This document shows positions 1-39,979 of a DNA stretch of 46,900 nt, piece by piece. The stretch covers positions 1 through 46,900 of IMG/VR virus record IMGVR_UViG_3300045018_000069, one strand, 5' to 3'. Positions within the stretch are counted from its first letter, which is position 1; each line of letters begins with the position of its first letter. The notes under the pieces are model-generated. The model was given only the letters and a program-made list of their open reading frames with translations, was not told the origin of the DNA and did no database searches. This DNA is from a virus. The position numbers were made by a program, and so were the translations under genes.

Positions 1-36
1 TCAAAACCAGTCGGCCGACTAAATCCCCGGGATGAA

Positions 37-7511: not shown

Positions 7512-7554
7512 CGCCCGCGAACCTAGTCGGCGATCGTCAGGCCCCGCGTCGCCC

Positions 7555-7586
7555 CGGCGTTGTCGGACCGCGCTTCGACAACGCCG
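7555..7586. promoter_or_regulatory. Late operator between P and O (CGTTGT-N14-ACAACG)
   Basis: A perfect inverted repeat with 11-bp arms, CGGCGTTGTCG at 7555-7565 and CGACAACGCCG at 7576-7586, around a 10-bp spacer. It is the only strong dyad in the gap between the divergent P and O genes. The same half-sites recur before J and before the V-W-FI operon. P2 Ogr activates late promoters through TGT-N12-ACA dyads; this site is TGT-N14-ACA. Being symmetric, it could serve both divergent late promoters. Confidence 0.75.
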
Positions 7587-7676
7587 CCGCCTTTCCTTCG
7601 GCCCGCCTTCTCGTCCCTCTTGGCCGCGTCAAACCGGATCGACCCGGCCGCAACGCGAACCGTCACCAGAGGTACC

Positions 7677-8537
7677 ATGGCCAAGTCCAAATTCTTCCGC
7701 GTCTTTGTCGAAGGTGCCACCGCCAGCGATGGCCGGAAGATCGAAGGCGCCTGGATCGACCAGATCGTCGCCAACTTCAACGCCGCGACCTACACGCCGC
7801 GGATCAATTGCGAACATATCAAGGGCTTCAGCCCCGAACCGCCCTTCAACTGCTATGGCGACGTCGTCGCGGTGAAGGCGCAGGTCGACGAGATCGAGAT
7901 CGGCGGCCGCAAGGAAAAGCGCAAGGCGCTCTACGCCCAGCTCGAACCCAATGAGCAGCTGATCGCCATCAACCAGAAGGGCCAGAAACGCTTCACCTCG
8001 GTCGAGATCTCGCCCAACTTCGCCGGCACCGGCAAGTTCGGCATTGTCGGCCTCGCCGTCACCGACAATCCCGCCAGCCTCGGCACCGAGGCCCTGACCT
8101 TCGCGGCGCTCAAGCCGATGTTCGACGCGCGCAAGGAGCATCCGGACAACCTCTTCACCGTGGCGGAAGAATTCCAGCTCGAGCTCGACGAGCCTGCAGC
8201 CCCGGTCGATCCCGCCGCTGCGGGCTTTTTCTCAAGCGCCAGCGCCTTCTTCCAGGCTGCGCTCAAGGGACTGAAGGGCGAAGCGGAACCCGAACCCGCG
8301 ACCCCACCCGTTCCGGCCAACGACAACAAGGCTTTCGCGGCGATGCTGCAGGGCGTCGAGCAGCTCAGCCGGGGCATGCAGGCGATGCAGGCGCAGCAGG
8401 GAAAGTTCGCGACTTCGCTTTCGCGGCTCGAGGTCGACCACCAGGCGCTGAAATCGGCGCTCGCGAAGACCGATGACGGCGGCGATCGCCGCAAGCCTGC
8501 CGCCGGCGGCGGCAACTTCGCCCGCACCGACTGCTGA
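7677..8537 (+). CDS. O: Capsid scaffolding protease (P2 O)
   Basis: A 286-residue scaffold and maturation protease that guides assembly of the procapsid and cleaves capsid proteins. Asp18, His47 and Ser108 occupy the positions of the P2 O catalytic triad (Asp19, His48, Ser107), in SDGR, NCEH and FTSVEI. The C-terminal half contains a predicted helical scaffold tail (residues 200-270). The start MAKSKFFRVF was chosen because upstream in-frame residues look like noise and the divergent promoter region must lie there. First gene of the rightward head operon. Confidence 0.95.
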   Translation: MAKSKFFRVFVEGATASDGRKIEGAWIDQIVANFNAATYTPRINCEHIKGFSPEPPFNCYGDVVAVKAQVDEIEIGGRKEKRKALYAQLEPNEQLIAINQKGQKRFTSVEISPNFAGTGKFGIVGLAVTDNPASLGTEALTFAALKPMFDARKEHPDNLFTVAEEFQLELDEPAAPVDPAAAGFFSSASAFFQAALKGLKGEAEPEPATPPVPANDNKAFAAMLQGVEQLSRGMQAMQAQQGKFATSLSRLEVDHQALKSALAKTDDGGDRRKPAAGGGNFARTDC

Positions 8538-8576
8538 TCGCCGCCCGCCCCGCCCCTTTCCCGCACCGAGGATTCC

Positions 8577-9596
8577 ATGCGCAACGAAACCCGCGAACTC
8601 TTCAACCAGTATCTCGATCGCCAGGCGGAGTTGAACGGCATCGCCGACGCGACTCAGAGCTTCACCGTGGAGCCTACGGTCGAACAGAAGCTCGAGGATC
8701 GCGCGCAGGAATCGAGCGAGTTCCTGCAGCGGGTCAACATCTCGCCCGTCGCCGAGCTCAAGGGCGAAAAGCTCGGTCTCGGCATCGGCGAAAGCCTCGC
8801 GCGCCGCACCAACACCGACGTCAATGATCGCCAGACCGGCGATCCCACCGACCTCGACGGCCGCATGTACGAGCTCGCCAAGACCGAGTTCGACACCCAC
8901 ATCAAATGGGCGAAGCTCGACATGTGGGCGAAGTTCCCGGACTTCCAGGAACGCATCCGCAACCAGGTCATCCGCCGCATCGCGCTCGATCGGATCATGA
9001 TCGGATGGAACGGCACCCATGCCGCCGCCGAGTCCAATCGCGCCACGCACCCGCTGCTTCAGGACATGAATGCCGGGTGGATCGCGCGCTGCCGCGCCGA
9101 CAAGGCCGAACATATCATGTCGGAGGGCACGAAGGCGGCCGGCAAAATCCTCGTCGGGCCCGGCGGTGACTATGCCACCATCGATGCGCTCGTCTGGGAT
9201 CTGTACAACGGGCTGCTGCCGACCTGGGCCTCGGGCGACACCGAACTGGTCGCGATCGTCGGCCGTGACATGATTCACGACAAATACTTCCCGCTGATCA
9301 ACCTCGATCAGCCGCCGACGGAGCAGCTCGCCCGCGACATCATCATGTCGCAGAAGCGGCTCGGCAAGCTGCCCGCCTTCCAGGTCCCCCATTATCCGGC
9401 AAACGCCGTCACCGTCACCCGCTTCGACAATCTGTCGATCTATTGGCAGGAGGGCTCGCGCCGCCGCTACATCATCGACAATCCGAAACGTGACCGGATC
9501 GAGGATTATCAGTCGGTCAACGAGGGCTATGTCGTCGAGGATTACGACTGGTTCTGCCACGCCGAGAATATCGAGATCATCGGCGGGGACGACTGA
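8577..9596 (+). CDS. N: Major capsid protein (P2 N)
   Basis: A 339-residue coat protein of the P2 N family. The N terminus MRNETRELFNQYLDRQAELNG, with FTVEPTVEQKLEDRAQESSEFLQ following, is the segment normally removed by protease O. Further family marks are DRIMIGWNGTHAA and the C-terminal NEGYVVEDY. It lies 39 bp after O and its stop overlaps the start of M by one base. Confidence 0.96.
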   Translation: MRNETRELFNQYLDRQAELNGIADATQSFTVEPTVEQKLEDRAQESSEFLQRVNISPVAELKGEKLGLGIGESLARRTNTDVNDRQTGDPTDLDGRMYELAKTEFDTHIKWAKLDMWAKFPDFQERIRNQVIRRIALDRIMIGWNGTHAAAESNRATHPLLQDMNAGWIARCRADKAEHIMSEGTKAAGKILVGPGGDYATIDALVWDLYNGLLPTWASGDTELVAIVGRDMIHDKYFPLINLDQPPTEQLARDIIMSQKRLGKLPAFQVPHYPANAVTVTRFDNLSIYWQEGSRRRYIIDNPKRDRIEDYQSVNEGYVVEDYDWFCHAENIEIIGGDD

Positions 9597-10417
9597 TGCT
9601 CAGCCCGGCGCAGATATCCCGGCAGAAGGCTCTCGCGGCCAAGCTCGGCCGCGCCGTCCCGGTCGTTCTCGGCATCGATGTCGCGGCACCCGGCAGCGAC
9701 ATGACCGTCCTGGCGGCGGCCGGCGCCGATGGCGCGCCGGTCGTCGTCGACGGCGGCCGCGAGATCTCGGAGCGCGAACTGCTGCTCGCGCGCCTCGGCG
9801 TCGATCTGCGCAAGCTCCACGGCATCCAGGCGCTCGAAAAGAAGCTCGAGGCCAAGGCCGTCATGATCGACGCCTATCTCCCATGGGTCGAAGGCCTGCT
9901 GAAGGCCGAGCGCGAAACGGGACGCGGCGTCCAGGACGAGATCCTCGTCCAGATGATGATCTGGCTCCTCGATCTCGGCCGCTACGAACGGGCGCTGCCG
10001 CTGATCGGCTACGTCCTCCGCCACAAGCTTGCCCTGCCCGAGCGATTCAAGCGCACCGCCGCGACATTGATCGCCGAGGAGAGCGCTGATGCAGCCTTGA
10101 AGGCGCTCGGACAGGGCAAGGCCGTCGATCTCGGCTTCCTGCTGAAGATCGATGCCCTCACCGGCGATCTCGACATGATCGACCAGGTCCGCGCCAAGCT
10201 CATGAAGGCGATCGGTCTCGTCTATCACGGCATCGCCCTGCAGGCAGCCGAGGATGATGACGGCGCTGCCGGCGCGCGCCGCTCCGCCCTCGCCAACGGC
10301 CTCCGCTATCTCGGCCGCGCGCTCGAGCTGGACAGCAAGGCGGGCGTCAAGACCGCGCTGCGCGATCTCGAGCGGGCCGAGGCCAGGCTCCAGGAAGACA
10401 AGGGACAAGCCGCATGA
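9596..10417 (+). CDS. M: Terminase small subunit, endonuclease (P2 M)
   Basis: A 273-residue subunit that recognises and cuts cos DNA together with P. The N-terminal part begins with LSPAQISRQKALA and the middle has a long helical stretch around HGIQALEKKLEAKAVMIDAY, followed by EILVQMMIWLLDLG and RALPLIGYVLRHKLALPERF, as in the M family. Family membership is supported by sequence and by its place between N and L. It overlaps N by one base and the next small gene by 4 bp (ATGA). Confidence 0.9.
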   Translation: MLSPAQISRQKALAAKLGRAVPVVLGIDVAAPGSDMTVLAAAGADGAPVVVDGGREISERELLLARLGVDLRKLHGIQALEKKLEAKAVMIDAYLPWVEGLLKAERETGRGVQDEILVQMMIWLLDLGRYERALPLIGYVLRHKLALPERFKRTAATLIAEESADAALKALGQGKAVDLGFLLKIDALTGDLDMIDQVRAKLMKAIGLVYHGIALQAAEDDDGAAGARRSALANGLRYLGRALELDSKAGVKTALRDLERAEARLQEDKGQAA

Positions 10418-10590
10418 TCAATCTGTTTCTGAGCTTCGCTCTGATTGCGATCGCGTTGATGGCCGTGTTGCCGCTCGCGATCCCCGCCTTCGTGGCGCTC
10501 GCGCTCGCGGCCTTGCGCCCGCCGGCGGTTCGCTATGGCCCGCCCGAGCCGCGTTCGATCTTCGACACGCGGCGCATGGGCCTCGCCTGA
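10414..10590 (+). CDS. Small membrane protein between M and L
   Basis: A 58-residue frame, MINLFLSFALIAIALMAVLP, with one or two hydrophobic segments at residues 3-35 and a polar C-terminal tail ending in SIFDTRRMGLA. Its ATG overlaps the M stop (ATGA), so it is probably translated by coupling. P2 has no gene here. Role unknown; it could be a lysis-related or superinfection-exclusion protein, but nothing in the sequence decides this. Confidence 0.7.
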   Translation: MINLFLSFALIAIALMAVLPLAIPAFVALALAALRPPAVRYGPPEPRSIFDTRRMGLA

Positions 10591-10713
10591 CCTTCACCAG
10601 CTCGCCCCGCGGCGCCGGGGGGCGGGACATGCGACCAGTTGGCGGAAGCTCGCTTCCCCACCGTCTGACCGCCTGACCCTCACCCCCCACTTCGCGGCCT
10701 GCCCGAGGACAAG

Positions 10714-11199
10714 ATGAGCGCTTTCATCGCCATCGATGCCGATCCGGTCGTCACGGCCGAGGATCCGTCTGCGGGCTCCATCGCCGGCGACGGCTTCTGG
10801 CCTGCCGTCGATCTCGACCGCGTCCGCGCGATCGGCCGCATCCCGACGATGGTGACGATCGACCAGCTGCGCGAGGCGACGATCGGCGCGGTCATCGCCG
10901 TCACCCGGCAGCTCATCGCCTGGCGCCAGAGCCATCTCGACGCTGGTCGGGCGACCCTTGCCGCGATCGATCCGACCCTGATCGCCGGCACCCTCCGGCT
11001 CGAGCATCTCTACCTGCGCGCGGTCACCGCCACCGTTGCCGCCGATCTGCTGGACACCCGGCAGGAGATCGGCGCGACGCGCGACGGCCGCGATCGCGCC
11101 GACGTCGAGGAAGTCCCCTCGCCAGACTGGCGCCGCATGGCAATCCACGCGATCCGCGACATCGCCGGCAAGCCCCGCACGCGCGCGAGGCTGCTGTGA
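10714..11199 (+). CDS. L: Head completion protein (P2 L)
   Basis: A 161-residue protein of the P2 L family, which stabilises filled heads and joins head to neck. Family signs are the early FWPAVDLDRVRAIGRIP, the helical ATIGAVIAVTRQLIAWR and the C-terminal DWRRMAIHAIRDIAGKPRT. It follows a 123-bp non-coding stretch after the small membrane gene and overlaps X by 4 bp (GTGA). Confidence 0.93.
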   Translation: MSAFIAIDADPVVTAEDPSAGSIAGDGFWPAVDLDRVRAIGRIPTMVTIDQLREATIGAVIAVTRQLIAWRQSHLDAGRATLAAIDPTLIAGTLRLEHLYLRAVTATVAADLLDTRQEIGATRDGRDRADVEEVPSPDWRRMAIHAIRDIAGKPRTRARLL

Positions 11200-11420
11200 C
11201 GATCGCCGCCTTCAGCGCGGCCGCCCTCCAGGACGAAACGCTCGACGAAATGGTCTGGCGGATCCTCGGTCGGGGATCGCCGATTGTCGAGCGGGTCCTC
11301 GACGCCAACCGCAAGCTCGCCGCCCTCGGTCCCCGACTGCCCGAAGGCACCATCGTCACCTTCCCCGCGATCGAGACCGCTCCGCCCGCCCTCGATCTCG
11401 TCCAGCTGTGGGACCTGTAA
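11196..11420 (+). CDS. X: Tail protein X (P2 X)
   Basis: A 74-residue LysM-like small tail protein of the P2 X family, starting at GTG 11196, which overlaps the L stop. The DETLDEMVWRILGR motif and LPEGTIVTFPAI are typical. It is thought to act in tail assembly. Stop overlaps the holin start by one base. Confidence 0.9.
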   Translation: MTIAAFSAAALQDETLDEMVWRILGRGSPIVERVLDANRKLAALGPRLPEGTIVTFPAIETAPPALDLVQLWDL

Positions 11421-11770
11421 TGGCCGAAGATATCTATCATGCTTTCGTCGCGGCCCTGCTGAAGCTGCTCGCCGCCTTTGTGCCGGCGGCCTTTGGCGCG
11501 CTGATCTCACAGCTCCTCCAGCGCGGCATCACGATCCGCGACCGCATCATCCAGTTCGTCGTCGGGATCCTGGTCTCCTACTATGTCACGCTCGGCATCG
11601 TCGCCTGGTGGGCGCTCGACCCTCTGGTAGGGCAGGCGATCAGTTTCGTGCTCGGCATGTCCGCCTATCAGGCGACGCCCAAACTCATCGCCAGCATCAC
11701 CGAGGCCTGCTCGCGCATCCCCGGGCTGATCGTCGGCCGCCTCGGCGGCCGCAGCGACCGGGAGGGCTGA
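11420..11770 (+). CDS. Phage holin
   Basis: A 116-residue membrane protein with three hydrophobic segments near residues 13-32, 44-66 and 71-85. It sits exactly where P2 Y lies, between tail gene X and the endolysin. Holins form timed holes in the inner membrane and let the endolysin reach the cell wall. Sequence similarity to a named holin class was not certain, but position and topology agree. Confidence 0.85.
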   Translation: MAEDIYHAFVAALLKLLAAFVPAAFGALISQLLQRGITIRDRIIQFVVGILVSYYVTLGIVAWWALDPLVGQAISFVLGMSAYQATPKLIASITEACSRIPGLIVGRLGGRSDREG

Positions 11771-11773
11771 GCG

Positions 11774-12244
11774 ATGGAAACTACCATCATCCGGCTGTCG
11801 CCGCATTTCACCATTGCCGAGTTCACCGCGAGCGCCACCGCCGATCGCCTGGACATCGACAATAGCATGCCCGAGCGGCTGCTGCCGGCGGCGCGCCTGC
11901 TCGCGGCGCATGCGCTCGAGCCCGTGCGCGAGCGCTTCGGCACGACCCGCCTCAACAGCGGCTATCGCTGCCTCGCGCTCAACCGCGCCGTCGGATCATC
12001 CGACGGAAGCCAGCACCGGCTCGGCGAGGCCGCAGATCTGCGGGTGCCCGGCGTCGAGAACCGCCTGGTCGCCGAGTTCATCCAGGACGAGTGCCAGTTC
12101 GACCAGCTGATCCTAGAAAATGTGCGGGCGGGCGTCCCGGGCAGTGGCTGGGTCCACGTCTCCTATCGCGCTGGCAGGCTGCGCCGGCAGGTGCTGACGA
12201 AAATCGTCGGCGAGCGCGGCTATCGCCAGGGGCTGGTCGCATGA
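11774..12244 (+). CDS. Endolysin, peptidase M15-type
   Basis: A 156-residue DD-peptidase-like endolysin that cleaves peptide cross-links of peptidoglycan. The zinc and catalytic pattern is visible: NSGYRCLALN, then GSQHRLGEAADLR with His81 and Asp88, and GWVHVSY with His128. There is no signal peptide, so it depends on the holin. It replaces the K lysozyme of P2. The gene overlaps the spanin gene by 4 bp. Confidence 0.93.
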   Translation: METTIIRLSPHFTIAEFTASATADRLDIDNSMPERLLPAARLLAAHALEPVRERFGTTRLNSGYRCLALNRAVGSSDGSQHRLGEAADLRVPGVENRLVAEFIQDECQFDQLILENVRAGVPGSGWVHVSYRAGRLRRQVLTKIVGERGYRQGLVA

Positions 12245-12705
12245 TCCGTCGCGCCCTCGCCCTGGTCGTTCCGCACGGCCCGTTCATCGTCCTGCTCCTG
12301 ATCGCGTCGGCCGCCGCCTGGCTCTGGGTCCGTGGCGAGCGTGCCATCGCTGATCGCGACCAGGCCGTCGCCTCGGCCGAGATGGTCTGCGCGGCCGCCT
12401 CGAGCAGCTTTGTGCCGGAAGACACCCGCGCCCGCGATCGTGGCCTCGTGTGTCGCAAGGCCGTGAAGGGCCTCGCCGACTTCCGCCTCAAGGCGATCGC
12501 CGACAGCAACGCCCTGCTCGTCCAGGCCGAACGCGATCGGCTCGAGCGCAGCCGGCGCGACGTCGAAACAGCGGTCGCCGCCGCCAACCGGACAGCGGCC
12601 GCCGCGCGCCGCATGGAGGAAGCCAATGCAAAAATCGGTTCGGATGATCGCGTTGATGGCGATTGGTTCGCTCGCCTTAATGACCTTGCCGGGCTGCGCC
12701 CGTAA
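12241..12705 (+). CDS. Rz: i-spanin (Rz-like)
   Basis: A 154-residue inner-membrane spanin: a signal-anchor helix at about residues 14-30 and a long charged coiled coil after it (residues 30-145). Together with the outer-membrane lipoprotein encoded in the overlapping frame it disrupts the outer membrane at lysis. The start overlaps the endolysin stop by 4 bp. Confidence 0.85.
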   Translation: MIRRALALVVPHGPFIVLLLIASAAAWLWVRGERAIADRDQAVASAEMVCAAASSSFVPEDTRARDRGLVCRKAVKGLADFRLKAIADSNALLVQAERDRLERSRRDVETAVAAANRTAAAARRMEEANAKIGSDDRVDGDWFARLNDLAGLRP

Positions 12706-12964
12706 CCGCGTCGAATCGGCCGGCACCAGCCCGCCCCTGACGCCGATCGCCGTCCAGGTCGACGCGACCCCGCCGGCCGAGCTGCTGGTCTGCCCGCAGC
12801 CGCCTGTCGCCTTCCCCGTCGATCAGGCCGCGATCCTGCCGGTCGACGTCCGATCGGCACTGACCAGCCTCGCCTTCGCCTATCGCGCGACGCTCCACCA
12901 GCTGCAGCGCCTGATCGCCTGGCACCGGCCGCCCGGATGCGTCCCCGATGCTCAAGCCCAATAG
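12626..12964 (+). CDS. Rz1: o-spanin lipoprotein (Rz1-like)
   Basis: A 112-residue protein whose first 24 residues end in LPGC, a clear lipobox with acylated Cys24, followed by a Pro-rich stretch. It overlaps the i-spanin gene by 80 bp in another frame, the usual overlapped Rz/Rz1 arrangement. It is longer than most Rz1 proteins and its C terminus overlaps the next gene by 17 bp. It is expected to bridge the periplasm with the i-spanin. Confidence 0.88.
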   Translation: MQKSVRMIALMAIGSLALMTLPGCARNRVESAGTSPPLTPIAVQVDATPPAELLVCPQPPVAFPVDQAAILPVDVRSALTSLAFAYRATLHQLQRLIAWHRPPGCVPDAQAQ

Positions 12965-13457
12965 CCTCCGCAAAGCGATCGTCGCCGCGCTGCCGGATCT
13001 GCGCGACAAGCCCGACGATCTCCGCCTGTTCGTCCGCAAGGGCCGGGTCCTGTCGAAAGACGGGCCCGGCCTTGGCTTCGAATATCGCTATACGCTGCTC
13101 GTCGAGCTGCTCGACTATGCCGGCGATCCGGACACCGTCTTCGCCGCCATCCTGCTCTGGGCTCGCCGCAACCAGGTCGACCTTCTGCAGGGCAACGGCG
13201 AGAGCGCCGGGATCCGGTTCGATGCCGACCAACTGTCGGCGTCGGCTGTCGATATCGTCGCCGAGCTTGAGCTAAGCGAGAATGTCGCCACCCGCCCACG
13301 CCAGGCCGGCGGGCTCGAGCTGGTGCACGTCCAAGAACCGGCGCCCGAGGATATCTACAACCCCGAGCTGCTCGAGGATCTCGGACGGCCGCCGCTCACC
13401 GCGATCTATGCTGGCAGCGTTCGCCTGGTACCGGGCCCGGACGATGACGGCGCCTGA
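12948..13457 (+). CDS. R: Tail completion protein R
   Basis: A 169-residue member of the P2 R family, needed for joining tails to heads. MLKPNSLRKAIVAALPDLRDKPDDL and the FEYRYTLLVELLDYAGD segment are characteristic. It overlaps the Rz1 gene by 17 bp and ends on the first base of the S gene. Confidence 0.93.
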   Translation: MLKPNSLRKAIVAALPDLRDKPDDLRLFVRKGRVLSKDGPGLGFEYRYTLLVELLDYAGDPDTVFAAILLWARRNQVDLLQGNGESAGIRFDADQLSASAVDIVAELELSENVATRPRQAGGLELVHVQEPAPEDIYNPELLEDLGRPPLTAIYAGSVRLVPGPDDDGA

Positions 13458-13942
13458 TGGCCGACATCGAGGACCTCGATCAGCTGCAGACATGGATCGG
13501 CGACATGCTCGCCGGGCTAGAACCCGGTCGGCGCCGGGCAATGGCGCTTCGTATCGCGAAGCAGCTGCGCCGCGCCAATGCCGAGCGGATCCGCGCGCAG
13601 GTCCAGCCTGATGGCTCCGCCTTCGTACCCCGCAAGCCGCAAAAGGGCACGCGCGGCCGCGTCGGCACGATCAAGCAACGCCGGCAATCGCGGAAGATGT
13701 TCGCGCGCCTGCGCCGCTTCGACAATTTGAAGGCGGAGGCCTCGGCCGAGGAGGCTGTCGTCGGCTTCCTTAATCCGGCCGTCGCCCGGGTCGCCCGCGT
13801 CCACCAGCTCGGGCTGCGCGATCGCGTCGCTCGTGACGGCCGCTCTCCCCAATATGATTATCCGGAGCGCGTGATCCTCGGATTTACCGACGGCGATGAT
13901 GCGGCTGTGCTGGATCTGCTCGCCGCAGCGTTGGAGGGCTGA
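13457..13942 (+). CDS. S: Virion morphogenesis protein S
   Basis: A 161-residue P2 S-family tail completion protein. The opening DLDQLQTWIGDMLAGL, the basic RRRAMALRIAKQLRRANAERI, the FVPRKPQKG segment and YDYPERVILGF are family marks. It is the last gene of the head operon; the 78-bp gap after it carries the second late operator. Confidence 0.93.
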   Translation: MADIEDLDQLQTWIGDMLAGLEPGRRRAMALRIAKQLRRANAERIRAQVQPDGSAFVPRKPQKGTRGRVGTIKQRRQSRKMFARLRRFDNLKAEASAEEAVVGFLNPAVARVARVHQLGLRDRVARDGRSPQYDYPERVILGFTDGDDAAVLDLLAAALEG

Positions 13943-13949
13943 TCGGCTC

Positions 13950-13977
13950 GCGTTGTGCAAGTGCATTCGCACAACGC
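13950..13977. promoter_or_regulatory. Late operator before J (CGTTGT-N14-ACAACG)
   Basis: A perfect inverted repeat with 9-bp arms, GCGTTGTGC at 13950-13958 and GCACAACGC at 13969-13977, and a 10-bp spacer. It repeats the half-sites and spacing of the P/O site and fills the gap between S and J, where P2 has its V-operon late promoter. The centre lies 57 bp upstream of the J start, so a transcript activated from the usual distance would have almost no leader. Confidence 0.72.
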
Positions 13978-14020
13978 TAGGCGGTCGCGAGGGTGACCGC
14001 TGATCGGCGAAACGTCGATC

Positions 14021-14911
14021 GTGTCCGATCTCGCCGCCAGCACCATCGCCGTCGATCTGTCGCGGCTCGCGCCGCCGGCCGCAGTGCGCCCGCTCGAATT
14101 CGAAACGCGCTTTGCCGAGATCCTGACCAGATTTCGCGCGCGCTATCCCGATCACGACGCTCTGCTCGAATCCGATCCGGTCATGAAGCTCCTCGAGGAG
14201 CTGGCCTATCGCGACGTCCTCGGTACCGCCGAGATCAACGACACCGTCCGCGCGCTGCTGCTCGCCTTCGCCGCCGAGGAAGATCTCGATCATATCGCGG
14301 CGCGGATGAACATCGCCCGGCGCGTGATACGCCCGGCCGAGGGGAACATCCCTGCCCTCATGGAAAGCGATGCCGAGCTGCGCCGCCGCGTCCAGCTGGC
14401 GCCCGAGCGCTTTCCCCTGCCCGGCCGCACCGCCGGCGGCTATGTCGCGATCGCGCTCGAGGCGGCCCCGCTGGTCAAGGACGTCGGTCTCGTCCGCCGC
14501 GAAGGCGGTCGCGTCGATGTCATCCTGCTCGGCCGCGAGGGCGACGGCGCCGTCCCGGCCGACATCGTCCAGGCGGTCTATCGCGCGCTCGAGCCCGATG
14601 GTGCGAGCGGCCTGACCGATATCGTCTCGGTCGCCTCGGCAACGATCATTCCCTACGCGCCGACCCTGACCGTCCATGTCCGCAGCGGTCCCGACCCGAC
14701 CCTCGTCCGCAATGCCGTCGAGACGTCTGTCCGCGCCTTCGCCGCCGATCGCCACCGCATCGGCGCGCCGGTCTTTGCGCAGATGCTCGCGGCTGCCGCC
14801 GGTACCGCCGGCATCGAGCGCGTCGAGGTCGATATCGGCGATGTCGCGGTTGGTCCGCGCGAGGCGGCCTGGCTCCAATCGCTGACCGTCAACGTTGCGA
14901 TCGCGGCATGA
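14021..14911 (+). CDS. J: Baseplate protein J
   Basis: A 296-residue baseplate wedge protein of the P2 J/Mu gp47 family. AVDLSRLAPPAAVRPLEFET corresponds to the start of P2 J, and DPVMKLLEELAYRDVLG and LDHIAARMNI are family marks. GTG 14021 is the only upstream start that keeps the family N terminus; no clear ribosome-binding site precedes it. It overlaps I by 4 bp. In P2, V and W precede J; here they lie 8 kb downstream. Confidence 0.92.
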   Translation: MSDLAASTIAVDLSRLAPPAAVRPLEFETRFAEILTRFRARYPDHDALLESDPVMKLLEELAYRDVLGTAEINDTVRALLLAFAAEEDLDHIAARMNIARRVIRPAEGNIPALMESDAELRRRVQLAPERFPLPGRTAGGYVAIALEAAPLVKDVGLVRREGGRVDVILLGREGDGAVPADIVQAVYRALEPDGASGLTDIVSVASATIIPYAPTLTVHVRSGPDPTLVRNAVETSVRAFAADRHRIGAPVFAQMLAAAAGTAGIERVEVDIGDVAVGPREAAWLQSLTVNVAIAA

Positions 14912-16209
14912 CGTTGCTCCTTCCCCCCAACAGGACACGGCTCGAGGCGGCTCTCTCCGCGACGATCGCTGCCAGCTTCCCGCGCCCCGCCGGCGCGATC
15001 GCGGCCGTCTTCGACGCCGACAGCTGCCCGCTCGACCTTCTGCCCTTCCTCGCCTGGGAGCTGTCGGTCGATCTCTGGGACGACGACTGGAGCGAAAGCA
15101 CCAAGCGCAAGGCCTGCCGGGATGCCTATCGCCTTCATGCGCTGAAGACGACGCTCGCCGGCATCCGGGAGCATGTCGCTCTGACCGGCGCCACCGTCGT
15201 CGGCGCGCGCCGCCCCAACACCTCGGCTTTCTACCTTCCGGCCCGCGATGAGGCTGCCCGACGCCGCTGGCGCGAGTCCATGCCCCGGGTGCAGCTGCGC
15301 ACCGCGCGCCAGCGCGGCATCGCCGGCGACCGCGCTTTCCTGTGCGCCGGTCGCATGCGCCGCTGGTCGGCCTTCACCTTCGACAGCGACGAAACCAACT
15401 GGACCTGGGACAGCGACCGACCCGTCCTCGACATGGCCGGCGCGGATCCGCAAAGCGGCATTTCTCCGAGCTTCCATGGCAGCAGCTTCTGGCAGACCTC
15501 GCGCGGCCCCGATCGGCTGCGCCTGGCGGCGACACTGGTCGACGGCGAGACAACCAGGGAACTGCCCCTGCAGCAGCTCGGCGACGGCGCGCTCCAGGTC
15601 GATCTTGCGACGCCGACCGCGCGCGATTTCGTCGGCCGCGGCTTCCTGGGGGCAGTCCGCCTGGCGGCGACCCGGGCGCCGACGCTTCGCGCAACGATCC
15701 GGCTCGACGATACGGCCGAGGCCTTCGCCATCACGCGCGGCGAGGATCCGCGCACCGTCCGTCCCGACATCCTGCCCGGGCGGCGCATCGCGCCCGCCCC
15801 GACCGCCTTTCATCGCGGTCCGATCGGCGGCCGCTTCCTGCGCACCACCCGTGCGCCCGAGCTGCTGTTGCGCCAGATCGCCATCCATGATCCCGCGCGG
15901 ATCTTCAGCGGGCAGCGCTCCCGCGCCTTCCATGGCGCCCACCGCCTGGGCTTTACCCCCTTTGAGGCGGAGCTGCGCATCGCCATCCCGATGACGCGCC
16001 CCGTCGCCCGTTCCTTCCGCTGGCATGGTGCCGGCCATCTCCGGGCGGCCGACCTGCGGCCGCTGGCGAACGCTCTCGAGGCGATCCGCGTGTCCAAGGC
16101 CTTCCGCGACCGCATCCTGGTCGACACGGCACTGCACCGGCCCGTCAAATTCTCTCGTGGACGGCGCTTCGGCACCTTCACTTTCGGCCAGATCATGGAG
16201 GCGAGCTGA
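14908..16209 (+). CDS. I: Tail protein I, with a long C-terminal extension
   Basis: A 433-residue protein whose first 190 residues are a P2 I-type tail protein: LLPPNRTRLEAALSATIA, LDLLPFLAWELSVDLWDDDW and TLAGIREHV. P2 I is about 176 residues, so about 240 residues at the C terminus are extra. That part is rich in Arg, Phe and Thr and may be a baseplate or fibre-attachment domain. The start overlaps the J stop by 4 bp. Confidence 0.9.
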   Translation: MTLLLPPNRTRLEAALSATIAASFPRPAGAIAAVFDADSCPLDLLPFLAWELSVDLWDDDWSESTKRKACRDAYRLHALKTTLAGIREHVALTGATVVGARRPNTSAFYLPARDEAARRRWRESMPRVQLRTARQRGIAGDRAFLCAGRMRRWSAFTFDSDETNWTWDSDRPVLDMAGADPQSGISPSFHGSSFWQTSRGPDRLRLAATLVDGETTRELPLQQLGDGALQVDLATPTARDFVGRGFLGAVRLAATRAPTLRATIRLDDTAEAFAITRGEDPRTVRPDILPGRRIAPAPTAFHRGPIGGRFLRTTRAPELLLRQIAIHDPARIFSGQRSRAFHGAHRLGFTPFEAELRIAIPMTRPVARSFRWHGAGHLRAADLRPLANALEAIRVSKAFRDRILVDTALHRPVKFSRGRRFGTFTFGQIMEAS

Positions 16210-16210
16210 C

Positions 16211-18460
16211 ATGGAACGCAAAGTCATTTTCCGCGACGGGATGGACGCGGACCCCAACGATTTCAACAATCTGCAGAACTTCGCTCAGACCTCATCCGAT
16301 CATGTCGTCGGCGATGGTATCTCGTCCGATCGTAAATTCGCCGGCTTCGCCGTGGCACAGCTCAGCGCGACCGAGATCGAGATGCAACCGGGTCGCCTCT
16401 ACAGCAATGGGGTGCGCTACGTCCTGGACACCAGCTACAGCCGCAACTTCCTGACGTCCCTGCCGGTCGCCACGAAGAAGCATATGCTGCTCGTCGTCTT
16501 CGGGCAGGAGGTCGAGACCGACGCCCGATCGCGCGAATATCTGATCGACGAGCTGACCCGCGCGACCGAGACCAAGTCGCTGCCGATGGAAGTCACCCGC
16601 CTCTGCAACGTCAACATCGTCGCCGGGCAGGAAAGCGCCGACCCGATCGACCCGACCTTCGATATCGGCGCGATCGCGGTCGCGCGCGTCATCCTCACGC
16701 CCGCCGGCATCGACGCCATCGAGATGATCGAGGAGAACCGGCTGCCGAGTGTCGCCAGTGTCTCGGCCGACGTCGATGTCCTGAAGGACGTCCAGGCGAA
16801 GACCGGCCCGAAGATCGCATCGCTCGATTCCGATCTCGCCGCGCTCAAGGCCGCCAGCGCCGGCAACGTCAACATCGTCGCTTATGGTCGCACGCTCGAG
16901 CGCCTGGCAGTGCTCGAGGCGAAGAACGGCGTCCCTTCCGCCGCCACTGACAGCGCTGCCTTCTACTATCTCGACACCAACGGCTCGGATCTCGCCTTCG
17001 TCGGATCGAACTGCAAGGTGCAGGAAGGCGTGCGCTTCGCCGACATCAACGCGGCCGAGGCAGCCCTCAATCTGTTCGAGCCGCTCAACCCGAATGCGAA
17101 GAATGTCGGCGGCACGCTCTTCCCGACCTACACGCTCGAGCGGCGCCTGACCTCCGGCCCGCGCCAGGGCGAGCTGCAGGCGGCCTCCCTCACCTACCAG
17201 AGCCACGAAATGGTCCAGAAGACCATGTCGCGCACCCGTATCCGCTATGGTTCGGCCTTCACCGTCTGCACCAATGCGGGCTGGTGGGGTGCGATCACTG
17301 ACCAGTATATCCCGCGCACCTTCCAGCGCGACGGCGAGACCTTCCAGGTGCTCGACGTCGATTGGGACGGCCCCACCCATGGCTGGGTGCGCCTGCGCGA
17401 ATATTGGTACGACACCTATGACGAGCCTTATTGGGAGGCCGTGACCGTCGACCATTCGGTCCTGGGCACCCAGACGGCCGAGACCTTCCTCAACGCCAAC
17501 GACATGTGGCTGGCGTCGATCGGCCTGACCTTCACCCGCCTTGCGGCCGAGGGCAATGCGACGATCGCGATCTGCGAGACCGATCGCGGGATGCCCAGGC
17601 TCGACAGCGCGATCAGCGTCACGACGCTTCTCCGCGCCGATATGAAGCTCAACCAGGAAACGGTCATCCCGATCCAGCCCACCTTCCTCAAGGGCGGGCA
17701 GCGCTACGCGATCCTCGTCATCACGGCCGGTGATCACTGGCTCGCGACCACCGGCGGCGCCAACTTCCCCTCGGGCACGCTCTTCACCGTCCTCGATGGC
17801 GCCTATCAGCAGGGCGACGGCACCCGCGACCTGTGCTTCTCGCTCTACGCCTGCAAGTTCGCACAGGCGCGCGCGATCGTGCGTCTCAACGACCTGCAGC
17901 TCGCCGGCGGCATCTCCGATATCGATATCCTCGCGGACTGCATCGAGCCGGCGAGCTGCGACCTGACCTTCGAGATTCAGGTCGACGGCAACTGGTACCC
18001 GCTCGACCGTAGCGGCTCGGTGCTCGGCGCCGGCGGCAGCATCCCGCCTGTCGTCCCGCTGCGCGCCATCTTCACCGGCACGACCGATGTCATGCCGGCC
18101 GTCCGCCTGACCGGCTCCAAGGTCCGGGTCAGCCGCTCCGCGACCAACCTGCTCCACGTCTCGCCGGTGCGGACGCTGCCCGGTGCCGGATCCGCGCAGA
18201 TCCGCGTCATCGCCCGCTATGAGGCCTTCGACCCGGCGCATCATACGGCAACCTGCAAGCTGCGCACCGGCGCCGGCTATGCGACCGTCGTAGCGCCGAC
18301 CAGCTTCACCGATATCATCAACCCGGACGGCTCGCGCGAGCGGACCTTCATCTTCAACCTCGGCGCGGCCGTCACCAGCTTCCGCTACCAGCTCGAAGCC
18401 ACGACCGACTCCGCGCTGCTGACTTTCCACCACGCCTGGACGAAATATTTCGCCCTCTGA
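16211..18460 (+). CDS. Large tail or baseplate structural protein
   Basis: A 749-residue protein placed where P2 has the tail fibre gene H. It begins MERKVIFRDGMDADPNDFNN, resembling N termini of baseplate proteins of the DUF4815 type, and continues with beta-rich segments and few helices. It starts one base after the I stop region, and the small genes following it are tightly packed, so it is part of a tail-tip operon. Its exact role (baseplate hub, fibre or receptor binding) cannot be told from the sequence. Confidence 0.75.
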   Translation: MERKVIFRDGMDADPNDFNNLQNFAQTSSDHVVGDGISSDRKFAGFAVAQLSATEIEMQPGRLYSNGVRYVLDTSYSRNFLTSLPVATKKHMLLVVFGQEVETDARSREYLIDELTRATETKSLPMEVTRLCNVNIVAGQESADPIDPTFDIGAIAVARVILTPAGIDAIEMIEENRLPSVASVSADVDVLKDVQAKTGPKIASLDSDLAALKAASAGNVNIVAYGRTLERLAVLEAKNGVPSAATDSAAFYYLDTNGSDLAFVGSNCKVQEGVRFADINAAEAALNLFEPLNPNAKNVGGTLFPTYTLERRLTSGPRQGELQAASLTYQSHEMVQKTMSRTRIRYGSAFTVCTNAGWWGAITDQYIPRTFQRDGETFQVLDVDWDGPTHGWVRLREYWYDTYDEPYWEAVTVDHSVLGTQTAETFLNANDMWLASIGLTFTRLAAEGNATIAICETDRGMPRLDSAISVTTLLRADMKLNQETVIPIQPTFLKGGQRYAILVITAGDHWLATTGGANFPSGTLFTVLDGAYQQGDGTRDLCFSLYACKFAQARAIVRLNDLQLAGGISDIDILADCIEPASCDLTFEIQVDGNWYPLDRSGSVLGAGGSIPPVVPLRAIFTGTTDVMPAVRLTGSKVRVSRSATNLLHVSPVRTLPGAGSAQIRVIARYEAFDPAHHTATCKLRTGAGYATVVAPTSFTDIINPDGSRERTFIFNLGAAVTSFRYQLEATTDSALLTFHHAWTKYFAL

Positions 18461-18471
18461 GGAGCCGATCG

Positions 18472-18651
18472 ATGACCGAACCTGCCTACCCGCCGTCGCC
18501 GTCCGGCTATTACCGCGTCAATCTGATGCGGACCTTTCCGCATATGGGCTATGACTACAAACCCGGCGTGGATCACACCGTCAACGAGGAGCTGCTGCAG
18601 CTGATGCTCGCCGAAGACGGCCTGCTCGACGGTCAGCCCGTCCCCGCCTGA
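18472..18651 (+). CDS. Small tail-operon protein
   Basis: A 59-residue protein, MTEPAYPPSPSGYYRVNLMR, with many Tyr and Pro residues. A clear GGAG ribosome-binding site lies at 18461-18464, and the stop overlaps the next ATG by one base (TGATG). No family recognised; it probably belongs to the fibre or baseplate set because of its tight packing. Confidence 0.7.
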   Translation: MTEPAYPPSPSGYYRVNLMRTFPHMGYDYKPGVDHTVNEELLQLMLAEDGLLDGQPVPA

Positions 18652-19088
18652 TGGCGACCGAGCTTCCCGTCGAACTCGACTTCGTCAAGGATGACGAAGC
18701 ATCGTCCGAGCGCATGAACCGGGCGATGCTCTTCCTGTACCTGCTCGCGCGCGCGGCGGCCTCGGTAAAGCCCGACTATGAGCGGGCGATCCGCGAGATC
18801 CAGGCAATCGGTCTCGAGCGGCTCAACGAGGTGCTTTCGCCGATCTTCTTGGAGACGCAGGCCCTCGCAATAGAGATGCAGTCGACCCGCGACTATTGGG
18901 TCCAGGGCAACATCCTCTCGGATCTGCGCACCGAGCTGCTCGGCGCGCTGTCCGACGCGGTCGAACCCGTCGCCGGCGACGTCGAGACCCTGACGGACGC
19001 TGTCGCCACTCTGCAGGCCTCGGCCGGCAGCGACGTCGCCCGCCTGACCCGGCTCGAGAATGACCGCTGGTTCATCAATCACGGATAG
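18651..19088 (+). CDS. Hypothetical helical tail-operon protein
   Basis: A 145-residue protein with long predicted helices (residues 15-60 and 85-135) and an ending LTRLENDRWFINHG. It could be a fibre coiled coil or fibre-assembly protein. It is coupled to the previous gene by a one-base overlap. Family not recognised. Confidence 0.7.
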   Translation: MATELPVELDFVKDDEASSERMNRAMLFLYLLARAAASVKPDYERAIREIQAIGLERLNEVLSPIFLETQALAIEMQSTRDYWVQGNILSDLRTELLGALSDAVEPVAGDVETLTDAVATLQASAGSDVARLTRLENDRWFINHG

Positions 19089-19094
19089 GACATC

Positions 19095-19424
19095 ATGGCC
19101 GCCGCAACTCTTCCCCCCGTCAACCGCACCGCGCCTGTCGCCCTGGCGAAGGCGCTCGGCCCCGTCCCCGCCGGCGAGGAGTGGAGCGTCGACGTTCGGA
19201 TCTGCAACAATGCCCCGCTCGACGACACCTTTGACCTGCGTATCCGCAAGACCGATGGCAGCAACGCAGCCTGGCGCGCAAAGGCGCACCCCGTGCCTGT
19301 CGGCTCGGGCACCTTCGATATCGAGCTGAAGCTACTGCTGACCGAGGGCTTCGAGCTGTGGGATGCGTCCGCCGCCGGCCGGGTCGACGTGTCCTACACC
19401 GGCGCCAAGCGCAGCATCGCATGA
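19095..19424 (+). CDS. Hypothetical beta-rich tail-operon protein
   Basis: A 109-residue protein with a likely beta-sandwich (VDVRICNNAPLDDTFDLRIRK, GSGTFDIELKLLLTEGFELW, GRVDVSYTG). Such folds are common in virion decoration or fibre-tip proteins, but the family is not recognised. It overlaps the next gene by 4 bp (ATGA). Confidence 0.7.
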   Translation: MAAATLPPVNRTAPVALAKALGPVPAGEEWSVDVRICNNAPLDDTFDLRIRKTDGSNAAWRAKAHPVPVGSGTFDIELKLLLTEGFELWDASAAGRVDVSYTGAKRSIA

Positions 19425-20206
19425 CCGCCCGGGTCGCCAATGCGCGCGGCGGCGGCACCGTCGCGCAGATCACCGAGCCAGAAGCGATCGCGCTCTTCTC
19501 GCGCGGCAGCTTCAGCCAGGCGCGCCAGCGCCGTATCTCCGCCTATATCCGGCGCTTCAAGCAGGCGGGCCTGTGGGGGAAGATCGCTGGCCTGTGGTTC
19601 GTCGCGGCCGAGAGCGAGGCGCAAGCCCTGCTCAATTGGGCCGATGCAAGCGGCGCGGGGGATCTTTCGATCAGCGGAGCTGTGACCTTCACGGCCGATA
19701 AGGGGTTTTCCGCCCTATCTCCGACGTCCTTTGTCAGTGGTCCCTTCGTTCCCACACCCGCCGACGGCGACGACTGGTCTTTCGTTTTCGCTGGGCTGAT
19801 CAATGGCTCGCTCACCACCTCGAGCGACTCGGCGGCCCAACGCATTCTCATCGACGCCGCTGAAAGCCGTGGACATTTGAATGTGGGCATGCTGTCGATG
19901 CAGAACCAACCCACCCGCATGGATCGGATCGGCGTCGGTCGAGCGGTCGAGCGGCTGTCGTTGCTCAAGACGACAGGCTACGCGATCTGCGGCGAGACCG
20001 AATATGAAAGCTCGCTCAACACCAGTTCGACATACTCGGGCTTCGGCGCGACCCTGTTTCGCGTTCCGGGTGCTGTTTCGCGAACTGGCGTACTCTCCCG
20101 CTGGTGCGGATCCGCGATCCTGAAGGGCGGCATGACCCAGGCGCAACGCCATGCCTTCATGCGGATCTGGGACGCCCTCGTCGCTGAGAGCGGCTGTCTC
20201 GAATAG
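19421..20206 (+). CDS. Hypothetical tail-tip or fibre protein
   Basis: A 261-residue protein beginning MTARVANARGGGTVAQITEP, with a short helical region to residue 70 followed by a lectin-like beta-rich part rich in Ser, Thr and Gly that contains DDWSFVFAGLINGSL. Its position at the end of the tail-tip operon and composition suggest an adhesin or receptor-binding part. Start chosen at the coupled ATG. The gene is followed by an abrupt drop in GC content. Confidence 0.7.
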   Translation: MTARVANARGGGTVAQITEPEAIALFSRGSFSQARQRRISAYIRRFKQAGLWGKIAGLWFVAAESEAQALLNWADASGAGDLSISGAVTFTADKGFSALSPTSFVSGPFVPTPADGDDWSFVFAGLINGSLTTSSDSAAQRILIDAAESRGHLNVGMLSMQNQPTRMDRIGVGRAVERLSLLKTTGYAICGETEYESSLNTSSTYSGFGATLFRVPGAVSRTGVLSRWCGSAILKGGMTQAQRHAFMRIWDALVAESGCLE

Positions 20207-20304
20207 CGATCGTACCTCTGCTTGACGAACCCCTATCCTCCCAGACATCAAGCAGAATGTCCGTTTCGGTGGAGAATCGGCGCCCCTCGTGATAGGCCCA
20301 AACA

Positions 20305-20451
20305 ATGAGACTGCCACAGAAGTCGAAACGCACGAAAAAGAACAAAATTGAAATTCATGAAAGAAGGAACAAAATTCTTCTGGTAATTTCAATCATATTT
20401 ATAGCAACGATTTTTGAAATAATATTCATTGTTGCCTTAAATAAGGTGTAG
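20305..20451 (+). CDS. Possible 48-residue membrane peptide
   Basis: A short frame, MRLPQKSKRTKKNKIEIHER, followed by a very hydrophobic helix rich in Ile and Phe at residues 24-46. The basic N-terminal half and single helix would put the N terminus in the cytoplasm. It lies in the AT-rich leader before the glycosyltransferase-like gene. It may be real or an accident of AT-rich sequence; no good ribosome-binding site is seen. Confidence 0.35.
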   Translation: MRLPQKSKRTKKNKIEIHERRNKILLVISIIFIATIFEIIFIVALNKV

Positions 20452-20507
20452 AGCATTAAGATTTGACGATGATCTAGGCAAGAAAATTAAAGCGAGAAAG
20501 AAAGAGA

Positions 20508-22094
20508 ATGAAATCGCCTTACCTTTTTGAATCTCGATCAAAATCGCTGCTCTTGCCGATATTAATAACTTTCGTCATTGCATTCATTCTTTATATTCCA
20601 TGGACCAATCCTAATTTTCGGGTTGCCCTCACACATGATAATCTTGAAGCCGAGATTGTTTTCAACAGATTAATCGGCCTTGTTTTGGCGAACTCTTCGG
20701 AAGGAGCCTCGCTAGCGTTAAACGGCAACTTGCCAACATACGCTTTTACGCGATTGTTTCAGCCTCTGAGCGTTCTGTACGCCGTACTCCCAGCATGGAC
20801 AGCCTACGCAACACTCGATGTGATCGAGCGATCCATCGCGTTCGCCGGAGTGTTTTTGCTCTGCCGAAGGAAGCATTTGCCCCCGGCACCAGCCGCGTTA
20901 GCAGCATCCTGCTTCGCAACGATGTTCAGCTACTCGGTTTTCTTGCTCAGCATCGCAGGAATTCCCCTCATCCTTTGGATGGCGCTGAAGCGACCAGACG
21001 GGCGTCTGCAACAAGTTGCATTGGTCGCGCTCACGCTCTTCATAGGGGCGAACAGTTCGCTGCCTCTCGTTGGCGTTTTCATGGTACTCGCAGCTCTTCC
21101 CACACTGCGCTACGGGCTCGGCCTCCGCCTCTCGGCATGGCAACTCATCGTTATTGGCGCCTATGGCCTTGGCCTTGCATTAGGAAATGCAAACCTCATC
21201 TACGCACAACTCTTCTCAGGTGTAGTCTGGCATAGGGTCGAATTGATAGCACCAAGACAGGCGATCAGCTACACATTCTACCAGATGCTTGTCCGCAATC
21301 CATTTTATCATGCATCCGCTCCACTCCAACTACTCCTTTATCCACTTCTGGCCGCCAGCATCTTTTATCGGCGCCACCTTTACTTCGTCGGCTTCGTCAT
21401 TTTCATGTGGATAATGCGAGCTTTTTACCTGTCTCCTCTTGCTGGAAGCTTTGCACATATCGGTTTCGAGTGGGACAGGTTCTTTTTTCTCTTGCCAGCT
21501 ATAGCGATCGTTTTTTGGATTATGCACTACAGCCACGCCCAAAAGGCTTGGCAGCGTAACGGCCTCCTCGCTTTGTTGATTGTCCAGTTTGCGGTGAACT
21601 TCGCCTATCAGCCGCAGGTGTCCGCAATGGCTCGATCTCTAGCTGGCCGAGAACCTCTACAAGAGATCGCAACATTTCCAGCATTCTACCGCTATCCAGA
21701 AATGGCTTCAATCCACCATTTCGTAAAAGGAGCTCCAGTCATGTCTGTCGGCCTAGACCCGATGGTGGCTCCGATGAATCGGATAAAGTCGATTGACGGA
21801 TATTACAATTTTTATCCACTCTGGTACAAACATGCATTCCGCCCTGTAATTGCCGATACACTTAACACCGAAGATGACCGCAAATACTTTGACGATTATG
21901 GCAGCCGAGTGTACGCATTCAACAATTCGGTTGCTCCCGAATTAATCGACTACTGCAAGGCTTTTGCTCTCGGAGCGCGCTACGTAATTTCGACCAAGCC
22001 GATCGCCGCCAATGTGTTGACGGAAGTACACCCCACGGGGTTGAAAACGCTTCGCCTCTATCGAGTTTCGGGCTGCCGCCCATTGGGCGACTGA
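20508..22094 (+). CDS. Polytopic membrane protein, GT-C/YfhO-like; lysogenic-conversion candidate
   Basis: A 528-residue protein with about 10-12 transmembrane helices, a first periplasmic loop containing THDNLEAEIVFNRL and a 120-residue soluble C-terminal domain. This layout (acidic loop after the first helix, many helices, extracytoplasmic tail) is that of GT-C glycosyltransferases and YfhO/DUF6044-like proteins. Such genes in prophages alter surface polysaccharide and block superinfection. A ribosome-binding site (AAAGAGA at 20500-20506) precedes the start. Its GC content is clearly below that of the tail genes on both sides, a sign of separate acquisition. No GtrA/GtrB partner is present, so the donor lipid and target are unknown. 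Confidence 0.8.
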   Translation: MKSPYLFESRSKSLLLPILITFVIAFILYIPWTNPNFRVALTHDNLEAEIVFNRLIGLVLANSSEGASLALNGNLPTYAFTRLFQPLSVLYAVLPAWTAYATLDVIERSIAFAGVFLLCRRKHLPPAPAALAASCFATMFSYSVFLLSIAGIPLILWMALKRPDGRLQQVALVALTLFIGANSSLPLVGVFMVLAALPTLRYGLGLRLSAWQLIVIGAYGLGLALGNANLIYAQLFSGVVWHRVELIAPRQAISYTFYQMLVRNPFYHASAPLQLLLYPLLAASIFYRRHLYFVGFVIFMWIMRAFYLSPLAGSFAHIGFEWDRFFFLLPAIAIVFWIMHYSHAQKAWQRNGLLALLIVQFAVNFAYQPQVSAMARSLAGREPLQEIATFPAFYRYPEMASIHHFVKGAPVMSVGLDPMVAPMNRIKSIDGYYNFYPLWYKHAFRPVIADTLNTEDDRKYFDDYGSRVYAFNNSVAPELIDYCKAFALGARYVISTKPIAANVLTEVHPTGLKTLRLYRVSGCRPLGD

Positions 22095-22105
22095 ATTCCC
22101 GGCAA

Positions 22106-22130
22106 CGTTGTTGACACAGCTTTAACAACG
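22106..22130. promoter_or_regulatory. Late operator before the V-W-FI operon (CGTTGT-N13-ACAACG)
   Basis: CGTTGTT at 22106-22112 and AACAACG at 22124-22130 form a perfect 7-bp inverted repeat with an 11-bp spacer, giving TGT-N13-ACA. It is one base shorter than the other two sites. It lies in the 109-bp gap after the glycosyltransferase-like gene, and a -10-like AATCAT at 22163-22168 sits about 50 bp from the centre, as in P2 late promoters. Confidence 0.68.
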
Positions 22131-22203
22131 GAACGCCCACGCGCGGTAACGCGACCCTTGGCAATCATGCGCTGTTCGATCCAGCCCATGGGAGCCAGGG
22201 ACC

Positions 22204-22689
22204 ATGCGTATCCACAAGACTGCCCGCGCTAGCTTCGCGCGTCCCGCCAACACCACGGCTTATGCTGTCGGCGATATCGTCGCCAATGCCACCGCCGCCA
22301 ATGCGGTCGCCCCGCTCGTCCTCGCGGTCGCCGGCGCAGCCGGGCAGGCCGGCAAGGTCGCCCGCGTCAGCGTCGCGAAGTCCTCGACCGTCACCGCCGA
22401 CGCCGCCTTCCGCCTCCACCTCTATGCCAAGGCGCCGACGCCTGCGAATGGCGACAATGGCGCCCTGTCCGTCAATGGCGTCGCATCGAACTATCTCGGC
22501 TCGGCCGATGTTACGGTCGACAAGGCGCAGGACGATGGCGCGATCGGTTTCGCCGACGTCGCCATCCCGTTCCAGTGCGAGAGCGGCGTCCTGACGCTGT
22601 TCGGCCTGCTCGAGGCACGCGGCCCCTATGTGCCTGCCAGCGGCGAGACGCTGAAGGTCGCCGTCTCCGTCGAACGCTCGCAGCTCTGA
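22204..22689 (+). CDS. Virion decoration-like protein
   Basis: A 161-residue protein starting MRIHKTARASFARPANTTAYAVGD. The RPANTTAYAVGDIVAN segment followed by beta strands and GLLEARGPYVPASGETLKV is shared by a family of small phage structural proteins; I know the pattern but not a functional name. It is the first gene of the third rightward late operon, which favours an abundant virion protein. Confidence 0.75.
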   Translation: MRIHKTARASFARPANTTAYAVGDIVANATAANAVAPLVLAVAGAAGQAGKVARVSVAKSSTVTADAAFRLHLYAKAPTPANGDNGALSVNGVASNYLGSADVTVDKAQDDGAIGFADVAIPFQCESGVLTLFGLLEARGPYVPASGETLKVAVSVERSQL

Positions 22690-39499: not shown

Positions 39500-39979
39500 A
39501 TGACGAAGCTCCGTCCCCCTCTGTCCTTCGAACAGGCGATGAACCGCATCGCCGGCCTGTTGGGCTGGGATGGCATGGCGGGCGCGCTCGGCCTCACCGA
39601 GTCCGCCTGCCGGAAGAAGGGCGATCCCGACTGCCCCGGGTCGCTCAGCTATGAGGAAGCCTTCACGCTCGACAGTGCCTATGCGGCCGCCGGCGGCGAA
39701 GGCTTTCCTCTGCACGATGCCTATGCGCTGCGCCTCAGCCTGTCGATCGAGGAACGCGCGGCATGCGAACGCGACCTTGTCCGCGCCGTCGGCCGGGTCG
39801 CCAAGGAAACGGGCGAGGCGGTCGATGCCCTTCTCGCCGCCAGCGATTCGAGGGCCGACCGGTACACGCGCGAAACTGCCACGCGCGAGGCCGAGGAAGC
39901 GATCCAGGCTCTCACCGGCGCAGTGCGCAGGATCGGCGGCGGGCCGATCGGGCTGCAGGACCAGGAGGCAGCGTCATGA
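39500..39979 (+). CDS. CII-like phage regulatory protein
   Basis: A 159-residue protein: RPPLSFEQAMNRIAGLLGWDGMAGALGLTESACRKKGDPDCP suggests the CII-like (CP76) family of P2/186-type phages. The C-terminal part is helical and charged. The family assignment is moderate. In 186, CII turns on the repressor promoter. The ATG is preceded by a GC-rich 200-bp stretch (39293-39499) with no gene. Confidence 0.65.
   Translation: MTKLRPPLSFEQAMNRIAGLLGWDGMAGALGLTESACRKKGDPDCPGSLSYEEAFTLDSAYAAAGGEGFPLHDAYALRLSLSIEERAACERDLVRAVGRVAKETGEAVDALLAASDSRADRYTRETATREAEEAIQALTGAVRRIGGGPIGLQDQEAAS

Follow-up and report, generated by a model that had tools for sequence, protein, structure and literature searches.

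What do three matching inverted repeats do in the gaps before the late operons of a P2-like prophage? The window, by which we mean the whole stretch of DNA that was analysed, is IMG/VR virus record IMGVR_UViG_3300045018_000069 (46,900 bases), a P2-like prophage in which a sequence-only reading had picked out three CGTTGT/ACAACG dyads spaced 13-14 bp and had seen no further copy by eye. When we searched both strands for CGTTGT-N10..16-ACAACG, we found exactly three exact matches, at 7558-7583 (N14), 13951-13976 (N14) and 22106-22130 (N13), and looser searches with GTTGT-N10..18-ACAAC and TTGT-N13/14-ACAA returned the same three window sites and no more, so both parts of that description hold. 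Read letter by letter, the two arms pair perfectly over 11 bp in site 1 (7555-7565/7576-7586), over 9 bp in site 2 (13950-13958/13969-13977) and over 7 bp in site 3 (22106-22112/22124-22130).

7555..7586 (centre 7570.5), no strand: dyad 1, CGGCGTTGTCG-N10-CGACAACGCCG; predicted operator common to the divergent P and O promoters; P/O-gap dyad kept in relatives
13950..13977 (centre 13963.5), no strand: dyad 2, GCGTTGTGC-N10-GCACAACGC; predicted operator of the J operon; J-gap dyads in relatives
22106..22130 (centre 22118), no strand: dyad 3, CGTTGTT-N11-AACAACG; predicted operator of the decoration/sheath (FI-type) operon; third-gap dyads in relatives

Site 1 lies between divergent P (5691-7511, minus strand) and O (7677-8537, plus strand), site 2 between the end of S (13942) and J (14021), and site 3 between the end of a DUF6044 gene (22094) and the gene at 22204-22689, upstream of the tail sheath gene. 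These coordinates agree with the gaps that had been proposed (between P and O, before J and before the decoration operon), and in the window search the dyads sit only there; many matches inside genes, named beforehand as evidence against the proposal, do not occur in the window. With mismatches allowed, the only near-copies in the window are at 877-901 (one mismatch) and 2432-2457 (two mismatches), and three-mismatch matches are at chance level for N12 and N13 and above chance for N14 (25 found vs 12 expected). The window search found no dyad copy upstream of ogr. The one-mismatch copy at 877-901 reads CGTTGT-N13-ACGACG and lies within an ORF near the left edge.

By the measures of a P2-type late promoter set, the window has inverted repeats with TGT..ACA cores and a spacer near 12 (TGT-N14/N14/N13-ACA), one site per late operon with one common to P and O, and an encoded activator of the Ogr/Delta type.

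39976..40326, plus strand: Ogr-like activator, Ogr_Delta (PF04606 57.5 bits, cut-off 26.3; PHROG 603 transcriptional regulator)

The zinc finger of this protein reads C-x2-C-x22-C-x4-C, as in P2-type activators, and carries an RTS triad at Cys1+10..12. Direct search found no close Ogr relatives in IMG/VR, and an AlphaFold model of the window Ogr alone was of low confidence (mean pLDDT 57.7) and was left out of the analysis. In several sphingomonad prophages (L395, L396, L397, L399), a different frame no more than approximately 400 bp from ogr codes for a small cysteine-rich stretch (CxxC...CxxC, often with a PPGWA motif).

One of the closest known systems is P2 (NC_001895; PP/PO, PV and PF, with Ogr): there too a dyad lies between divergent P and O and one lies before each other late operon, the half-site is GTTGT and Ogr is a C4 zinc-finger protein. 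In contrast, the second promoter is before V in P2 and before J in the window, and the P2 spacers are N12/N11 with imperfect second half-sites, whereas the window has N14/N14/N13 between perfect CGTTGT and ACAACG. The P2 sites had been summarized as TGT-N12-ACA, which is only loosely so; the record reads GTTGT-N12-CCATC (P/O), GTTGT-N11-ACAAA (V) and GTTGT-N12-CCAAC (F). The further suggestion that the wider spacer is peculiar to this phage does not survive comparison with relatives, where the spacer in 45 non-redundant P/O dyads is 13 in 31, 14 in 7, 12 in 5 and 11 in 2. In the Ralstonia phages phiRSY1 and phiRSA1, TGTTGT-(X)13-ACAACA is found 5' of four late genes, centred at -50 to -90 from the start codon (PMC5694545); these dyads, also proposed from sequence, have a wider spacer like those of the window, but with T rather than C as the outer base and N13 throughout. 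For Stenotrophomonas phage Smp131, whose J-type operon layout matches the window, one palindrome is listed for both PP' and PO', followed by PJ' and PV', and the sites are described as similar to TGT-N12-ACA (PMC3931495). Thus, N13 dyads and a palindrome common to P and O are already known, and the N14/N14/N13 set of the window is a variant within the known range.

To follow the dyads across relatives, we collected 129 loci on the basis of related capsids. In many of them, the P/O gap contains a TGT-N11..14-ACA dyad approximately 0.9-1.1 kb upstream of the capsid start; the outer letters are phage-specific, and a second copy often lies 4-9 kb downstream. GTTGT-N11..15-ACAAC gave 42 matches, mostly N13, in 19 of 34 related virus records, as compared to 5 for a reversed control. 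In the closest relative, L002 (capsid 84% identical), the CGTTGT half-sites are kept and the spacer is altered in sequence and in length (N13 vs N14). Among 398 sphingomonad genomes, we found a related capsid in 31 and an Ogr in 40, and we read their prophage stretches. In most of these prophages, a single dyad type recurs in two or three of the gaps known from the window, at P/O and then approximately 5-9 kb and 10-16 kb downstream, and 24 loci gave 106 dyad matches vs 33 for scrambled half-sites. Half-sites vary by phage, non-TGT forms included (GCGTCGG, CATTTGG, ATTGGG, CTCCTT, CTCGTT), and copies within one phage are almost the same; L374, for instance, has GCCTTGTAGAGTGCGTCTCTACAAGGC in three places. 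Relatives with an Ogr similar to that of the window have dyads at the same places; the reverse, an equivalent Ogr without dyads, had been named as a finding that would speak against the proposal. Chance repetition within GC-rich DNA, as an explanation of the three window matches, has nothing in its favour beyond the small copy number; dinucleotide shuffles of the window gave 0 matches in 100 (expected number 0), and the recurrence of dyads in the same gaps across many relatives already refutes it, leaving this explanation a probability close to nil. An initial ranking of dyads from the sphingomonad loci was overrun by GC-rich coding matches and was replaced, and a 14-base palindrome scan of IMG/VR, with many unrelated matches among the matches listed, was set aside.

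L103 (Brevundimonas UBA7664) has six N14 dyads of one type over approximately 14 kb, one of them 4.8 kb before the capsid gene, and an ATG lies close to the start predicted for most of the six. In L376, a possible tandem operator consists of two dyads of the CGTTGT type, which lie 41 bp from each other at +12387 and +12428 relative to the capsid start.

Where would transcription begin in relation to a dyad? We chose 45 P/O dyads on the dyad alone and then aligned them on the half-site nearest each gene. On the O side, TTG is present at offsets 14-16 (38, 36 and 37 of 45) and a -10 ending in T at offset 42 (39/45). On the P side, TAnnnT is present at offset 37 or 38 in 21/45, as compared to a shuffle maximum of 5 at any one position. 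Where a -35 is present, it begins at offset 14 for N12, N13 and N14 dyads and at offset 15 for both N11 dyads, and this constancy across spacers indicates that the proximal half-site, not spacer length, sets the position of polymerase. From the -35/-10 alignment of the relatives, a start is predicted near offset 49, which places the dyad centre at about -56. Counted from the proximal half-site, the annotated, measured starts of P2 are at 49 for both O and P, at 50 for F and at 51 for V, and the V start is the A of its ATG.

The spacing to the start codons is rigid. The P start codon is 56-60 bp from the dyad centre in 26/26 sphingomonad prophages and the J start codon is 56-60 bp from it in the phages read, whatever the half-site, and start-codon distances played no part in dyad ranking. 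TTG upstream of O is found at centre+20/21 in 25/26 sphingomonad gaps, a count that leans toward the model because some of these dyads were ranked partly on promoter features. Sphingomonadaceae P2-like prophages (L365-L394, L400) thus share with the window the three gaps, the start-codon spacing and the place of the -35 before O, while their half-sites differ by phage (CCTTGT, TGTTGT, TATTGT; non-TGT CGTCGG, ATTTGG, ATTGGG, CTCNTT). In L114/L370 (Sphingomonas PR090111-T3T-6A), TGT is wholly lost and GCGTCGG...CCGACGC occurs three times with the -35, spacing and start codons retained; the Ogr of this phage has EDR in place of RTS.

Placed on the same offsets, the window has the following features.

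7520..7525, minus strand: predicted P -10, TAGGTT; offset 38 from the proximal half-site, where TAnnnT stands at 37/38 in 21/45 relatives
7509..7511, minus strand: P (terminase large subunit) start codon ATG; 59-60 bp from the dyad centre, offset 52; near-leaderless mRNA predicted
7592..7597, plus strand: predicted O -35 region, TTTCCT; relatives carry TTG at the same place
7677..7679, plus strand: O (scaffold/protease) start codon; predicted leader approximately 50 nt
14021..14023, plus strand: GTG start codon of J; dyad centre 57-58 bp away, offset 50; at the predicted transcription start
22162..22168, plus strand: predicted -10 region of the third late operon, CAATCAT; by alignment on the promoter offsets of relatives
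22204..22689, plus strand: opening gene of the third late operon; matches no family, named a decoration protein in the sequence-only reading; its ATG is 86 bp away from the dyad centre

Apart from the P -10, the -35/-10 matches of the window are weak; J is without a good -10, the O -35 has TTT where 25/26 sphingomonad P/O gaps have TTG, making the window the exception, and promoter consensus scans found nothing at the window dyads. Given the rigid 56-60 bp distance, near-leaderless P and J mRNAs are predicted, as measured for P2 V; the P leader in the window would be 2-3 nt, in contrast to 23 nt in P2, and that of the third operon approximately 30 nt.

Position, recurrence in relatives and a promoter geometry that fits the P2 starts all uphold the proposal of Ogr-type late operators, one of them common to P and O, and we assign a probability of roughly 0.9 to the reading in which this P2-like prophage uses its three dyads as operators for Ogr-dependent late promoters. 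On induction, the Ogr-like zinc-finger protein (39976-40326) would bind the paired half-sites and would most likely bring in RNA polymerase at a set distance from the proximal half-site, with transcription starting, at the distance seen in P2, approximately 49-51 bp beyond it. At site 1, each half-site would be proximal to one of the two divergent promoters, so that a single dyad could serve P and O, while site 2 would act for the J operon and site 3 for the decoration/sheath operon.

The same palindromes might instead act in RNA, as hairpins between operons that serve as terminators, attenuators or processing sites. All three fold stably as RNA (-24.5, -16.9 and -9.3 kcal/mol, with z of -4.0, -2.9 and -1.9), two dyads directly follow the end of a co-directional gene, past its stop codon, and the bases beside TGT are palindromic inside a site yet unlike between sites. 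However, the genes on either side of site 1 are divergent, and no transcript would have to end there; no T-run follows any dyad, so that none has the stem-loop and T-run of an intrinsic terminator, and no terminator-like site coincides with one; and conserved half-sites at a fixed distance from -35/-10 and start codons fit DNA sites. We regard hairpins as a very unlikely explanation.

If the dyads are operators, is Ogr the protein that reads them? We paired Ogr with dyads from 49 phages, P2 and the window included; some pairs combine an Ogr and a capsid from different contigs of one genome (e.g. L111, L371, L392), and the L104 genome has two Ogr genes. Arg is present at Cys1+10 in 37/37 TGT phages vs 2/12 non-TGT phages, a contrast picked after inspection among related sequences from few independent lineages (Fisher p 8e-9 without correction, 0.08 after merging into 9 clusters). 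The two non-TGT phages with Arg have C-x5-C in the second knuckle. Among 34 Ogr positions, Cys1+10 was the best class separator (z 13.3), and the next two were its neighbours (6.9 and 6.3). Ogr proteins with HGN and EGS were seen with CTCNTT in two phages; L382, L392 and L393, of the same type, were then checked and have CTCNTT-type dyads, and in the sphingomonad set the phages whose Ogr has HGS, HGN, EGS or CGN are exactly those with CTCNTT dyads, with no others. L349 (VRTRK, CGTTGT) and L274 (LEDRK, CGTCGG) form a near-minimal pair at 56% identity.

The full half-site behaves differently from its core. The sequence-only reading had proposed to search the window and related prophages, expecting hits restricted to late-operon gaps that track with one Ogr subtype; the first part stands, since exact matches in the window are in late-operon gaps only, but the full CGTTGT half-site does not track one subtype. 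Overall similarity of the Ogr proteins did not correlate significantly with that of the half-sites (r 0.10, p 0.12; with capsid partialled out 0.03, p 0.37), and the L274 Ogr, which is 50% identical to the window Ogr over the zinc-finger stretch, goes with CGTCGG. Ogr vs spacer length gave a weak association (p 0.035). In these pairs, only the TGT core of the half-site tracks an Ogr feature, the Arg at Cys1+10. An out-of-sample test in wider Alphaproteobacteria, with the prediction set beforehand, yielded one new phage, G701, whose dyad was not confidently readable.

These associations bear on whether the operators belong to another regulator, for instance the HTH protein encoded at 38654-39301 or a factor of the host. 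The phage does encode an HTH_3 protein, and sequence alone cannot name the binding protein; against this, the half-site core shifts with one Ogr residue, the CTCNTT dyads coincide with the HGS/HGN/EGS/CGN type of Ogr in the sphingomonad set, and dyad position equals that of the annotated activator sites of P2. Another regulator is thus very improbable, and Ogr is the preferred activator. Beyond this, we lean slightly toward the view that Ogr activators and late operators diversify together by a short code, in which the residues at Cys1+10..12 and the spacing of the second cysteine pair would set the half-site while the scaffold and the 56-60 bp distance, with its near-leaderless P and J mRNAs, stay fixed. 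The code residues may be RTS, VKT, EDR and HGS/EGS, and the half-sites a TGT core, GTTGG/C, CGTCGG and CTCNTT.

The specialist interest is the rigid spacing with half-sites that change along with one Ogr residue, rather than the dyads themselves. Cys1+10 is a candidate specificity determinant, and a recognition code from natural variation would be useful because no solved-structure relative of Ogr was found by sequence. The comparison also suggests a general rule for finding late promoters in P2-like prophages that have no obvious TGT-N12-ACA. The window phage itself offers a testable late-gene switch, and its predicted near-leaderless mRNAs are testable by 5'-end mapping.

Other genes in the window include the DUF6044 membrane-protein gene at 20508-22094 (PF19510, E 8e-46), which is inserted after the J operon and ahead of the third late operon, at roughly the place of fun(Z) in P2, and is possible lysogenic-conversion cargo. 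In the 31-39 kb cargo region, a ParA/AAA_31 ATPase at 33699-35621 matches PDC-M28B, a model for candidate defence genes in PADLOC (E 2e-27), and its neighbours have no or weak matches. At the right edge, a polyphosphate kinase 2 gene (45832-46617; PF03976) is probably host DNA flanking the prophage.
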